NCBI GenBank assembly: GCA_031081715.1
Contig: JAVHMA010000025.1
Coordinates: 1 to 54,399 of the forward strand
Direction of reading: 5' to 3'
DNA from: Armatimonadota bacterium
GTDB lineage: Bacteria > Sysuimicrobiota > Sysuimicrobiia > Sysuimicrobiales > Humicultoraceae
Length of the DNA stretch: 54,399 nt
Shown: piece after piece, positions 27,630-52,685 of the stretch
How the letters are laid out: every line of letters begins with the position of its first letter
How positions within the stretch are numbered: the first letter of the stretch is position 1
Made by a program: the position numbers and the translations under genes
The notes under the pieces: model-generated
The model's input: the letters and a program-made list of their open reading frames with translations, nothing else
Database searches by the model: none
What the model was told of the DNA's origin: nothing

Positions 27630-29080
27630 AGGCGCCCGAGCCGGCGACCGTCGTGGTCATGGGCGGCACCGGCGACCTGATGCGGCGCAAGCTGTTGCCG
27701 GCGCTGTACGCGAACGTCGCTGCCGGGGCGCTGGATCCGAACTGCCGCGTTCTGGCCGTGGCCCGCGGCCGCGGGGTGGCCGATGAGGGGTTCCGCGCGT
27801 GGGCCGCCGCCGCGCTGGCGGAGGCTGGCCTGCCGCCGGGCCCCGGACCCGACGCATGGACGCGCGAGCGCCTGCACTACCAGACGATCGGCGCCGGCGG
27901 CGCGGACGACTACGCCGCGCTCGCGCGGCGTATCGCGGCACTGGAGGCCCTCACGCCCGGCCCCGGCGATCGTGTTTTCTACCTCGCATTGCCGCCGCAG
28001 GCGCTTCCGGCGGCCGTCCGCGGGCTGGGCGGCGCCGGGCTGAGCCGCGGCCCGGGATGGACGCGGCTGGTGGTCGAGAAGCCCTTCGGCCGCGACCTGG
28101 CATCGGCGCGTGCGCTCAACGCGCTGGTGCACGAGTACTTCGAGGAACCCCAGGTCTATCGCATCGACCATTACCTGGGGAAGGAGACCGTGCAGAACCT
28201 GCTGGTGCTGCGGTTCGCCAACCCCATCTTCGAGACACTGTGGAACCGGGACCGCGTCGCCAGCGTGCAGATCACGGTGGCCGAAGACGTCGGCGTGGAG
28301 GACCGGGCCGACTACTACGAGGACGCGGGCGCGGTGCGCGACATCGTCCAGAACCACGTGATCCAGCTCCTGGCGCTGGTGGCCATGGAGGTTCCGGGCG
28401 CGTTCGAGGCGGATCAGATCCACAACGAGAAGGTGAAGGTGCTGCGGGCGATCCGGCCGCTCTCCGCCGCGGACGTGGTCTACGGACAGTACGCCGCCGG
28501 ACGGATCGGCGACCGCGACGTTGCCGGGTACCGCGACGAGCCGGGCGTAGCCCCCGCATCTCGCACCGAGACGTTCGCCGCGCTGCGGCTGGGGGTGCAG
28601 AACTGGCGGTGGCACGGCGTGCCGTTCTACCTTCGGGCCGGCAAGCGAATGGCGCAGCGGCTCACGCAGATCGTGGTCACCTTCCGCCGGCCGCCGGTGA
28701 TGCTGTTCCCGTCGCTACACGCCTCGGGGAAGATCCAGCCGAACGCGCTGGTGATTACCATCCAGCCCGACGAGGGCTTCGACCTGGCGTTCGAGGTCAA
28801 GGCGCCGGGAGCCGGCGTCGCACTGCAGTCCCAGCGGCTGCGCTTTCGCTACGCGGAGGCGTTCGCGCCGCTGCCGGACGCCTACGAGACCCTGCTGGTG
28901 GACGTGGTGGCCGGTGACCAGACGCTGTTCGTCCGCGCCGATGAGGTCGAGGCCGCCTGGGCGCTGCTGGCGCCCCTGCTCGCCGCGCCGCCGGCCGTGC
29001 ACGTCTATCCCGCGGGGTCGTGGGGACCTCCGGAGGCCGCACGCCTCCTCGACAGCGAGGCCGCGTGGGCGCCCGCGTAG
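27626..29080 (+). CDS. zwf: Glucose-6-phosphate 1-dehydrogenase
   Basis: This 484-residue enzyme of the oxidative pentose phosphate pathway oxidises glucose-6-phosphate and makes NADPH. The N-terminal dinucleotide site is MGGTGDLMRRKLLPALY, the conserved lysine is in VVEKPFGRDL, and the active-site signature is RIDHYLGKETVQNLLVLRF. IQPDEGFDLAFEVKAPG is a C-terminal family block. It begins within the stop of the cation transporter and overlaps the CopC-CopD gene by 16 bases, so redox supply and metal export are translated from one message. Confidence 0.96.
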   Translation: MKAPEPATVVVMGGTGDLMRRKLLPALYANVAAGALDPNCRVLAVARGRGVADEGFRAWAAAALAEAGLPPGPGPDAWTRERLHYQTIGAGGADDYAALARRIAALEALTPGPGDRVFYLALPPQALPAAVRGLGGAGLSRGPGWTRLVVEKPFGRDLASARALNALVHEYFEEPQVYRIDHYLGKETVQNLLVLRFANPIFETLWNRDRVASVQITVAEDVGVEDRADYYEDAGAVRDIVQNHVIQLLALVAMEVPGAFEADQIHNEKVKVLRAIRPLSAADVVYGQYAAGRIGDRDVAGYRDEPGVAPASRTETFAALRLGVQNWRWHGVPFYLRAGKRMAQRLTQIVVTFRRPPVMLFPSLHASGKIQPNALVITIQPDEGFDLAFEVKAPGAGVALQSQRLRFRYAEAFAPLPDAYETLLVDVVAGDQTLFVRADEVEAAWALLAPLLAAPPAVHVYPAGSWGPPEAARLLDSEAAWAPA

Positions 29081-31434
29081 CCACCCGCGTCCTCGTCCTG
29101 GTCCTGGCGGTCTGGTTGATCGCCGCGGGCCAGGCCGCAGCGCACGGGGTCGTCGAGCGCGCGGTGCCCGCGGCGAACTCGTCGGTGACAGTCCCGCCGC
29201 GGCAGATCGAGCTGTGGTTCAACGAGCCGGTGGACCCGGCGTTCAGCACGGTGACGGTCACCGACACGGCGGGCCGGCGAGTCTCGGGCCCGGCGGTCGT
29301 GGCGCCCGACGGCCGGCAGATGATCGCGCGCCTGGAGCGCCTGCCCGAGGGCTTCTACACCGTGCGCTGGCGCGTGCTCTCGCGGGTGGACGGGCACACG
29401 ACCAGCGGCCTCTTCGCTTTCACGGTCGGTCTGGGGAGGCCGCCCGAGGGGTTCGGCGGAGAAGAGGCGCCGGACCCGTGGCTGGTCGGGGTGCGTTGGG
29501 TGGGTTTCGCCGCGCTGCTGCTACTCGCCGGCGCCGCGCTGTTCCCGCCGCTCGTGCTGGAGCCGGCGCTGGGCCGCCTGGACCCGCCTGACGCGCTCCA
29601 GCTCGAGGACGCGGCGCGGGCGCGGCTGCGGCGCACGACCGTCGTCGCCGGAACCCTGGTGCTGGCAGCTGCTGCGACCGAGGTTGTGCTCCGCGCGGCC
29701 CAGCTCACCGGCGTCGGGATCGCCGGCGCCGTCGCTGGCGGCCACGCGGCCACGCTGCTGTGGTCCACGAAGCCGGGGTGGAGCGCGCTCGTCCGATCGG
29801 CGGTGGCTGTGCTGCTGCTCCTGCCCGGTAGTCCACGCGGCCGCATCGTGCGGACAGCCGGGCTGTTCTGGCTGGTGATCGTGGGGGTGGTGACCGCGAT
29901 GTTCGGCGGGCCGGCGGGCCTGGCGGGCGGCGGGCACCTCGCCCTCGTCGTGCTGGTCGGCGCGGTCTACGGCCTCGCCACGGCGCTGCTCGCGATCATC
30001 CTTCCCCAGGTCGGCGACGTGCGCGTGCCCGACTTCCCGTGGGTCGCGGTCGCGGCCGCGCTGGCGGCGCTGGGTGGCATGACCTTGAACGCCCACGCGT
30101 GGGGGGGCGGGCCGGCCGCGGTGCTCGCCGACTGGATCCATCTGGCCGCGGGCACGGTTTGGATCGGCGGCCTGGCGTGTCTGCTGCTCGTGCTCGCCGC
30201 GGTCGCGCCGGCCGCGCGGCTGCGCGCGGCGCGCGCGCTCGTGCCGCGGTTCTCCTCGACCGCGGCCGCGTCGCTGGCGGCCCTCATCGTCACGGGCGCC
30301 TACGCGATCGGGCTGCACGTGCCCTCGACCGCCGCGCTCGCGGCCACGGGCTACGGCCGAACACTGGTAGTGAAGCTGCTCCTGGTGCTGCCGCTCGTGG
30401 CGCTCGCCGCGGTCAACCGGTTCGTGCTCCGGCCCCAGCTCGCCTCTGGCGGCGAAGCGGCTCCGCCCGCGCAGCGGCAGTTCGTGCGCGTCGCCGGGGC
30501 CGAGGTCGGGCTGGGCGCCGCGATTCTACTCGCGACCGCCGCGCTCACGGCGTGGCCGCCGGCCGCGGTATCGGTGGCGCGGCCGGCCGAGAGCCCCGGG
30601 CTCGTCTTCGTGGGGGCGGTCGGGGACGCGCGCCTCTCGCTACGGGTCGCGCCTGCCCGGCCTGGGGAGAACACGATCGAGGCCACGGTCGAGGGCGCGG
30701 ACCGCGAGCCGTTGGGGCAGGACGCGCGCGTGCTGGTGCGCCTGCACAAGCTCGACGAGGAGGTCACGTCGCCCACCGTCACGCTGCTCGGCATCGGCGC
30801 GGGGCGCTATGCCAGCCCCGACCCGGTGCTGCTGCCCTCGGGCTGGTGGGAGCTCGAGGTCGTCCTGCGCCGCCGCGGCGTGCTCGACCGGACGGTCAGT
30901 TTCCCGCTGCGGCTGGGCGCTGGCCCGGCCCCGGCGTCGGATTCGAGGGCGGTGCGGCTGCTCGCTGACGCCCGCGCCGCGATGCACCGGCTGCGGGCGT
31001 GGCGCGAGGTCGAGCAGATCGCCGACGGCGCCGGAGGTATGGGTGTCGCACACCTGGAGCTGGTCCGGCCCGACCGGATGCGCGTGCGCACCTCGGCCGG
31101 CACCGAGGTGATCTTCATCGGGACCGCGCGCTTCCTCCGCGATGCCGGTGGCGCCTGGCGGTTGGAGACGCTCGCGCGGCCGGTTCCCGTGGAGGGTGCG
31201 CTGCAGTACCTGGTTGACGCCCAGGGTGTGGTCCTGGGCCGTACCGGCGCGTGCGGCGGCGAGGACTGTCAGGTGGTGCTGTGGGAGGCGCCGGGCCGCG
31301 CGGCGGCGTTCGCCGGCTGGATCGGAACCAGGACGCTGCTGGTCCACCGGATCCTGATGGTCGCACCATCGCACTTCATGACTGCAACCCTCGGCGACTT
31401 CGACGCGCCGATTCGCGTGGAGCCACCGCGCTAG
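29065..31434 (+). CDS. CopC-CopD fusion with C-terminal LolA-like domain
   Basis: The product is 789 residues from the GTG at 29065. A signal peptide is followed by a CopC domain: mature N-terminus AHGVVERAVPAANSS, whose His27 is the usual first copper ligand, and DGHTTSGLFAFTV with His111. A CopD-type membrane domain follows (about 135-500, eight helices, including the WIHLAAGTVWIGGL block with its conserved His). Then a beta domain of FixH/YtkA type (about 515-620) and a LolA/RseB-like lipoprotein fold (about 630-789; WREVEQIADG, then APSHFMTATLGDFDAP). CopC-CopD fusions handle copper at the membrane. Downstream lie the selenoprotein candidate and csoR. Confidence 0.88.
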   Translation: MGARVATRVLVLVLAVWLIAAGQAAAHGVVERAVPAANSSVTVPPRQIELWFNEPVDPAFSTVTVTDTAGRRVSGPAVVAPDGRQMIARLERLPEGFYTVRWRVLSRVDGHTTSGLFAFTVGLGRPPEGFGGEEAPDPWLVGVRWVGFAALLLLAGAALFPPLVLEPALGRLDPPDALQLEDAARARLRRTTVVAGTLVLAAAATEVVLRAAQLTGVGIAGAVAGGHAATLLWSTKPGWSALVRSAVAVLLLLPGSPRGRIVRTAGLFWLVIVGVVTAMFGGPAGLAGGGHLALVVLVGAVYGLATALLAIILPQVGDVRVPDFPWVAVAAALAALGGMTLNAHAWGGGPAAVLADWIHLAAGTVWIGGLACLLLVLAAVAPAARLRAARALVPRFSSTAAASLAALIVTGAYAIGLHVPSTAALAATGYGRTLVVKLLLVLPLVALAAVNRFVLRPQLASGGEAAPPAQRQFVRVAGAEVGLGAAILLATAALTAWPPAAVSVARPAESPGLVFVGAVGDARLSLRVAPARPGENTIEATVEGADREPLGQDARVLVRLHKLDEEVTSPTVTLLGIGAGRYASPDPVLLPSGWWELEVVLRRRGVLDRTVSFPLRLGAGPAPASDSRAVRLLADARAAMHRLRAWREVEQIADGAGGMGVAHLELVRPDRMRVRTSAGTEVIFIGTARFLRDAGGAWRLETLARPVPVEGALQYLVDAQGVVLGRTGACGGEDCQVVLWEAPGRAAAFAGWIGTRTLLVHRILMVAPSHFMTATLGDFDAPIRVEPPR

Positions 31435-31454
31435 CGACGGAGGAGGTGGCGAGG

Positions 31455-32078
31455 ATGACGAACCGACGACGCCCGCGCCGCGCGGCACCGTGGCGCCTGC
31501 TGGCGGTCTCAGCTGTGCTGGCCGTCGCAGCCGCGCTGTGGCTGAGCCTGCGGCCAGGAGCACCGCCAAAAGGCGCGATCCCGCCGCCGCTCGGCGGCCC
31601 GCAGATCGCGCAGGACGTGAACACGATGCTCGGCCGTCGTGGGCCGGCGTTCTCGTTGCCCGACGGCGACGGCCGCACGCACGCCGTCACCCCGGGCGCG
31701 ACCGGGCGCCCGCTCGTGGTCATCTCGCACATGGGGTACTACTGAGGGCGCTGCGTTGTCCAGCTCGGCGAGCTGGAGCGGCACGCGGCGGCGATCCGGG
31801 CGCTCGCCGACGTTTACGTCGTGAACCCGGATACGCCCGAGGACAACCGGCGGGTGCGCGAGGGCACGCGGCTGAGCATCCCGATCCTGCTCGATCCTGG
31901 CTACACGGTCGCGCGGGCGTACGACCTGCCCGGCGAGGGTCGGCCGATGAACGGGCTCGTCGGGGTGGTGGTGATGGACGCCGGGGGGATCATCAGGTTG
32001 CAGCGCGTGGACATCGACTTCGGGGCGCACGGCGGCCAGATCGTCCACGTGTTGCAGGGGCTCGCCGCGCGGCCCTGA
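31455..32078 (+). CDS. Membrane-anchored peroxiredoxin-like selenoprotein (UGA = Sec97)
   Basis: The frame runs from ATG 31455 (AGGAGG at 31441-31446) to TGA 32076-32078, 207 residues, interrupted only by TGA at 31743-31745. One transmembrane anchor (about 12-31) precedes an AhpC/TSA-type thioredoxin fold: GRRGPAFSLPDGDGRTHAV, then VVISHMGYY-U-GRC-VVQLGEL. The family pattern here is G-x-W-C-x-x-C-x-x-Q-L-x-E-L, so the TGA falls exactly on the catalytic (peroxidatic) Cys and Cys100 is the partner (UxxC). The fold continues without a break (VYVVNPDTPEDNRRVR, then IPILLDPGYTVARAYDL). A SECIS-like hairpin follows. A sequencing error or pseudogene is the alternative. Confidence 0.85.
31746..31782 (+). 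promoter_or_regulatory. SECIS-like hairpin directly after the in-frame UGA
   Basis: CCAGCTC (31760-31766) and GAGCTGG (31770-31776) form a perfect 7-bp stem with the three-base loop GGC. A lower stem GCUGC (31750-31754) with GCGGC (31778-31782) extends it across a small bulge. The loop begins 21 bases after the UGA and starts with G. This agrees with the accepted bacterial SECIS layout: hairpin within the coding region just 3' of UGA, short apical loop with G in the first two positions. Binding by SelB is inference. Confidence 0.72.
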
Positions 32079-32137: not shown

Positions 32138-32404
32138 CTAGCCGATGAAGCGGTCCAGGGCTTCCTTCAGGTCGGCCACCGCGGCGGCGACGTTGCCCCG
32201 CGTCTTGGCCTCGACGACACAGTGCTCGAGGTGATCCTCGAGCAGGACGCGCGCCGCCTGGTCGAGCGCGCTGCGCGCCGCGGCGATCTGGATGAGTACC
32301 TCGGGGCACGGCCGTCCGTCCGCGACCATCGTGCGGATGCTCCGCACGTGGCCCTCGACGCGGGCGAGGCGGTTGACGACCTGTTTCGTCTTGGTGTGCG
32401 GCAT
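32138..32404 (-). CDS. csoR: Copper-sensing transcriptional repressor CsoR
   Basis: This 88-residue all-helical DUF156 protein has Cys33, His58 and Cys62 (GRPCPEVL; DHLEHCVVE) at exactly the CsoR spacing (Cys, +25 His, +4 Cys). These are the trigonal Cu(I) ligands of copper sensors, whereas RcnR and FrmR types use other residues. GGAGGG precedes the ATG, and TATACT (plus-strand AGTATA at 32432-32437) is its likely -10. It converges with the selenoprotein gene and diverges from the PIG-L-like gene. Two palindromes of CsoR type occur in the window (32489-32504 and 36886-36904). Confidence 0.93.
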   Translation of the reverse strand: MPHTKTKQVVNRLARVEGHVRSIRTMVADGRPCPEVLIQIAAARSALDQAARVLLEDHLEHCVVEAKTRGNVAAAVADLKEALDRFIG

Positions 32405-52480: not shown

Positions 52481-52685
52481 GCGTGCCTCCCGGCTTCCGT
52501 GCCGGCGCGGCGCCAGCGGGTCTCGGAGACCGCGGCGTCATCTGTGCGCCTGACTTCTTCGGCAGCCCGGCTGACTTCTCGAGGAAGCCCCTCGGCTTTG
52601 CGTCCGCGCCTCGCGGCGCGTTTGCCGTTTCGGAAGCCTGCACGTCTCGGGATGCCCATTACGGCGGCCGTTCAGACCGGCCGGC
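52481..52685. other. 205-base gap between the CAP gene and a membrane-protein gene
   Basis: No gene, repeat or RNA structure that I can support. The stretch is less GC-extreme near 52540-52600. It must hold the minus-strand promoter of the CAP gene, but I found no convincing hexamer pair. Confidence 0.4.

Follow-up and report, generated by a model that had tools for sequence, protein, structure and literature searches.

The gene on the forward strand at positions 31455-32078 of the 54,399-nt stretch of DNA analysed here (the window) almost certainly encodes a selenoprotein, in which one internal UGA would be read as selenocysteine (Sec97). The fuller account, in which the product is a Sec-decoded, membrane-anchored redox protein with a U-x-x-C active site working on thiols and disulfides, we hold to be probable and put no higher, because its functional half is less certain.

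Reading frame across the UGA

The frame comprises 207 codons and a terminal stop (TGA, 32076-32078); it opens with ATG 31455, is preceded by an AGGAGG with an 8-nt spacer, and is interrupted by a single in-frame TGA (31743-31745) that lies between GYY and GRC when TGA is translated as U, all of which is as the preliminary description had it (Table 1). The 110 open codons between the two TGAs are weak evidence for coding by themselves, as open frames past a TGA are cheap in a GC-rich genome, and 13% of mononucleotide shuffles of the DNA after the TGA keep the stretch open. It is comparison, and not the frame itself, that carries the case for read-through. What lifts the downstream frame above chance is its GC content by codon position (0.78/0.45/0.95, typical of coding DNA), a Pfam AhpC-TSA match that crosses the TGA (PF00578, residues 60-181, E=1.4e-13; 51.3 bits, above the gathering score of 26), and the TGA and the pN/pS ratios of the homologues described below. 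Gene callers that read UGA as a stop would split such a gene.

Table 1. Coordinates in the window of the selenoprotein gene, its elements and its two flanking genes
Feature	Position	Strand	Evidence
Shine-Dalgarno AGGAGG	31441..31446	+	sequence, 8 nt before ATG
Selenoprotein gene, predicted Sec97, membrane-anchored AhpC/TSA thioredoxin-fold protein	31455..32078	+	translation with TGA=U; Pfam; AlphaFold2
Hydrophobic N-terminal helix, residues 13-31, probable signal anchor	31491..31547	+	model helix
Putative Sec-UGA codon (Sec97)	31743..31745	+	codon alignment, TGA in 8/8 members
Cys100, partner of Sec97 in U-x-x-C	31752..31754	+	alignments
bSECIS-like hairpin TCCAGCTC-GGC-GAGCTGGA	31759..31777	+	folds; pair counts with both-side changes at 3 pairs
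CopC-CopD fusion gene, probable operon partner	29020..31434	+	Pfam CopC 2e-21, CopD 1.5e-21
CsoR/FrmR-type metal-sensitive repressor	32138..32401	-	Pfam Trns_repr_metal 5.2e-27

Homologues and conservation of the UGA

The gene is present in five genomes of the same order, the host's included, and two further members came from scanning genome contigs, in assemblies labelled Elusimicrobia and Chloroflexi; a more distant member was found in genome G073. The scan that gave the Elusimicrobia and Chloroflexi members used a pattern from a four-row alignment, since six rows diverged too far to yield one; with the single protein alone, scanning the contigs recovered no relatives. The seven homologues share 32-55% identity with the window's protein. 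In the codon alignment all eight members carry TGA at the identical codon, and neither Cys nor any other sense codon occurs at the Sec97 position among them. The alignment of homologues that had been proposed as a check on the gene accordingly has the reading continue past the same, shared TGA. Both U97 and Cys100 of the U97-G-R-C100 motif are invariant among the members, and neither the genomes searched nor the scan of genome contigs held a Cys form of the branch, the only Cys proteins being distant paralogues.

Synonymous sites are near saturation among the members (pS ~0.5-0.9), while the pN/pS ratio ranges over 0.33-0.68 after the TGA and over 0.36-0.68 before it. Large synonymous differences combined with such ratios point to purifying selection on the downstream half, and by this comparison protein-level selection there is at least as strong as on the upstream half. 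In a close relative, genome G007, only the downstream half survives, as a remnant directly before two CopC genes (L053:6248-6484), probably through gene loss.

Predicted fold and active site

An AlphaFold2 model from the eight sequences, with Cys in place of Sec, has a mean pLDDT of 88.7. It contains a helix at residues 13-31, in agreement with the membrane anchor claimed in the preliminary description, and an unbroken thioredoxin-like arrangement in which residue 97 starts the active-site helix 98-108; together with the Pfam match, this bears out the claim that a peroxiredoxin-like domain continues past the TGA. The hydrophobic helix is preceded by an Arg-rich N-terminus and is probably a signal anchor, with an N-in/C-out orientation suggested by the positive-inside rule. 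Foldseek assigns a Bcp/peroxiredoxin-like fold (E=2.7e-10) with Bcp-type proteins top-ranked, and sequence profiles also place Bcp-type peroxiredoxins first, with ResA (7e-10) and TlpA (2e-6) lower. When HMMER aligns the protein with one of the Bcp type, Met93 falls on the Pro of the peroxiredoxin signature, Sec97 on its Thr and Cys100 on the peroxidatic Cys, so that PxxxTxxC reads MxxxUxxC in the window's family and the signature is lost. Met93 is invariant among the members, as is His192. Judged from these alignments, Sec97 would stand where a CxxC of the thioredoxin type has its first Cys, and not where a peroxiredoxin has its peroxidatic Cys; the earlier statement that the TGA sits at the first catalytic Cys is right in the former sense and wrong in the latter.

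The assignment bears directly on function, for which a selenoperoxidase or a disulfide reductase had been suggested. The gene could encode a true selenoprotein that is a peroxidase, a membrane-bound selenoperoxiredoxin in which either Sec97 or Cys100 reduces a hydroperoxide and the other resolves. The AhpC-TSA domain, the Bcp-type proteins among which both structure and sequence find their best matches, and the position of Cys100 opposite Bcp's peroxidatic Cys would all fit such an enzyme. But the signature Pro and Thr have given way to the invariant Met93 and to Sec97, the known selenoperoxiredoxins are of the TxxU type with Sec at the peroxidatic place (PMC1088965), and the same phylum has separate TPGU proteins, and we therefore regard the peroxidase as unlikely. 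Since the signature Pro and Thr are lost and the Prx-like UxxC proteins have been regarded as thioredoxin-like (PMC1088965), a thiol:disulfide oxidoreductase appears the likelier function, and the reductase is the better half of the earlier suggestion.

Selenocysteine machinery

The search for selA, selB, selC and selD that had been proposed earlier found the full Sec decoding set in the host genome (an assembly of 2.98 Mb in 49 contigs, rated 97% complete). The tRNA-Sec scores 67.7 bits and has a UCA anticodon; selA (4e-131) and selB (7e-98) are on the same contig, both within 4.5 kb of it. The selD gene (1.6e-116) has an in-frame UGA of its own at the usual Sec site (AGUAAK), which gives the host a further selenoprotein gene, independent of the present one and from a well-known family. 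A second host match to tRNA-Sec (48.2 bits, C24) was discarded as a tRNA-Ser by ARAGORN, and the matches of 49-50 bits in relatives are probably tRNA-Ser too.

Within the phylum, selA was found in 34 of the 43 genomes searched and a tRNA-Sec match above the cut-off in 37, some of the weaker ones probably being tRNA-Ser. The SelA search gave no match in the genomes of the distant members G073, L086 and L087, although tRNA-Sec was matched strongly in the last of these (73.9 bits); incomplete or mis-binned assemblies are a likely reason. In G042 (68% complete) there was neither a SelA match nor a convincing tRNA-Sec.

Selenoproteins appear to be numerous in the phylum. L069, L075 and L079, from other genomes of it, are peroxiredoxins of the Bcp type in which UGA takes the peroxidatic position (TPGU), with Cys forms elsewhere. 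PMC13188914 cites a Methylomirabilota genome with 63 selenoproteins, and a paper on the phylum inferred for the host (PMC11604079) leaves selenium unmentioned. The present gene contributes a branch of selenoproteins from an uncultivated and little-studied lineage, most of whose searched genomes have Sec machinery.

A conserved bSECIS-type hairpin

The hairpin downstream of the UGA has an 8-bp stem and a 3-nt loop, GGC, that starts with G and lies 21 nt after the UGA, with a folding energy of -25.9 kcal/mol. All eight members have a counterpart 13-14 nt after the UGA, with a 7-8 bp stem and a loop starting with G, and all eight conform to the published bSECIS rules: a loop of 3-9 nt with G in its first two places, a stem of 4-16 bp, a distance of 16-37 nt from the UGA and an MFE of at most -7.5 (PMC13188914).

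A single hairpin of this kind is weak evidence on its own. The rules are easily passed in the GC-rich window, by 24.5% of its TGA triplets (4.6% with an equally long stem), and the QLxEL protein motif favours a palindrome, such that reshuffling the synonymous codons gives the stem with p ~0.07-0.14 per gene. For these reasons only joint conservation across the family counts strongly, and there the evidence is strong: pairing family-wide fills 95.3% of cells against 83.3% in shuffles, with 0/500 shuffles as high (the shuffles ignore relatedness among the members), and sliding the hairpin frame along the alignment gives pairing of 23-55%. Three stem pairs have changed on both sides (GC to UA, CG to GC and GC to AU), one such change being the synonymous double change CAG...CTG to CAA...TTG. 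A search of the 43 phylum genomes with the pattern [UGA/Cys]-x-x-Cys-x-x-Gln-Leu-x-Glu-Leu gave 17 matches, every one with UGA and none with Cys, and each with at least 7 of the 8 hairpin pairs; five belong to the window's family and 12 to another UxxC family. A search of Rfam returned no SECIS match in the gene, and a match to sRNA P10 (14.5 bits vs 37) was discarded as chance.

The second UxxC selenoprotein family is found in other genomes of the phylum (loci L089-L094, L096, L098-L101 and L103), with the motif RxAxWUxxCKxQLVEL, the same hairpin and UGA in 12 of 12.

With the Sec machinery, the TGA of all eight members and the conserved hairpin in hand, the earlier call of a UxxC selenoprotein is well sustained. 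Were the UGA instead a true stop, the gene would end as a 96-residue membrane peptide and the downstream half would be either a gene of its own or a remnant in decay, in keeping with a GTG at 31821 that would start an 85-residue frame after the TGA and with the remnant in G007, which is of the downstream half only. Such a history sits poorly with a TGA at one codon in eight homologues, with purifying selection on both sides of it, with a predicted fold that runs unbroken across it and with a full set of Sec genes in the genome, and a start at 31821 would remove the active-site helix; we consider a true stop very improbable. A sequencing or assembly error, by which TGC or TGG was read as TGA in a draft assembly of 49 contigs, has a negligible chance and is excluded by the TGA common to eight different assemblies, with proteins 32-55% identical to the window's.

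Gene neighbourhoods and a possible mechanism

The copper neighbour named in the preliminary description was recovered: the CopC-CopD fusion gene ends 20 nt upstream of the selenoprotein gene. The CsoR/FrmR-type repressor gene is convergent with the selenoprotein gene and is a neighbourhood gene whose membership of the selenoprotein unit is that of a candidate, and genes for a cation-efflux protein and a P-type ATPase lie within 6 kb in the window. Among the relatives, G026 has a CopD-domain gene upstream, then BNR-repeat and cytochrome c genes, and its order of BNR repeat, cytochrome c and selenoprotein recurs at the Chloroflexi-labelled locus, where TlpA-like and DsbD-TM genes are found too. 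G035 and G029 have P-type ATPase and TlpA-like genes as neighbours; TlpA-like genes stand near three family members. In the stretch read at G042 and at the Elusimicrobia-labelled locus, the copper/cytochrome linkage was absent. The linkage recurs without being uniform, so a role in handling copper or assembling cytochromes is offered as a lead; as the neighbourhoods differ from member to member, both the partner and the copper role stay tentative.

Two further features of the window may be recorded. The CopC-CopD fusion has ~295 residues after the CopD match that give no Pfam hit, with a CGGEDC motif near the end, and a c-di-GMP-I riboswitch lies at 52558-52636 on the reverse strand (61.8 bits).

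Probably, the host's SelA, SelB, SelD and tRNA-Sec insert selenocysteine at the UGA at 31743, directed by the hairpin downstream. The 207-residue product would then be held in the cytoplasmic membrane by its one N-terminal helix, with the AhpC/TSA thioredoxin-fold domain and its Sec97-x-x-Cys100 redox pair probably facing outward. Sec97 would probably attack a disulfide or an oxidised thiol of a partner, and Cys100 would resolve the Sec97-partner intermediate through a Se-S bond, with reducing power for the pair coming perhaps from a chain of the CcdA/DsbD/TlpA type. A thiol protein outside the cytoplasm, connected with the handling of copper or the assembly of cytochromes, is the probable partner. 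Going further, we suggest quite tentatively that the branch exists only in the selenium form, as an outward-facing UxxC reductase for extracytoplasmic copper handling or cytochrome assembly and as the selenium counterpart of TlpA/ResA, in which Met93 and His192 possibly take part in metal or substrate binding. If confirmed, an outward Sec enzyme beside copper and cytochrome genes would be a testable example of selenium in electron transport or in the assembly of metal centres.

Comparison with known systems

Set against the copper chaperone Sco, with its CxxxC and distal His copper site, the window's protein has the spacing UxxC and so does not match, while its His192 is invariant. SelL (NF040769) has a Prx-like fold in common with it, and its profile matches the window's protein weakly, at 22.8 bits (E=5.9e-5) where the cut-off is 120; the motif is UxxU in SelL and UxxC in the window's protein. 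ResA and TlpA, which are thiol:disulfide reductases anchored in the membrane, have one N-terminal helix, an AhpC/TSA or redoxin domain and a redox pair of the CxxC type. The window's protein shares the N-terminal anchor and the AhpC/TSA domain, with UxxC for CxxC; it differs in having Sec for the first Cys and in being closer to Bcp, both in sequence and in fold rank. With the Sec peroxiredoxins of the Bcp/PrxQ type (TxxU) it shares the fold and the Pfam family, its best structural matches being Bcp, but its Sec is at the Thr position and not the peroxidatic one, and PxxxTxxC has lost its Pro and Thr.

The closest known kind is that of the Prx-like thiol:disulfide oxidoreductase selenoproteins ('Prx-like 1', PF00578, UxxC/UxxU), with which the domain, the UxxC and an in-frame UGA with an immediate bSECIS are shared. 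These proteins were 'predicted with high confidence' in PMC13188914, and Prx-like UxxC proteins also appear in PMC1088965 and PMC2398784. The gene belongs to the known PF00578 UxxC Prx-like selenoproteins; what is new is its branch, which is membrane-anchored, sparsely distributed and so far found only with Sec. The preliminary description's 'new selenoprotein' accordingly holds for the branch, of which we found no description in the open-access literature, and not for the kind, which had been listed already (PMC1088965 of 2005; PMC13188914). The nearest outgroup matches to the branch are of the GxWUPxCRKQLVEL type. What separates the branch from 'Prx-like 1' is that no Cys form of it was found, together with its N-terminal membrane anchor, its copper and cytochrome neighbourhoods, the HMG before Sec in seven of the eight members and, towards the C-terminus, a DxxFGxH motif.
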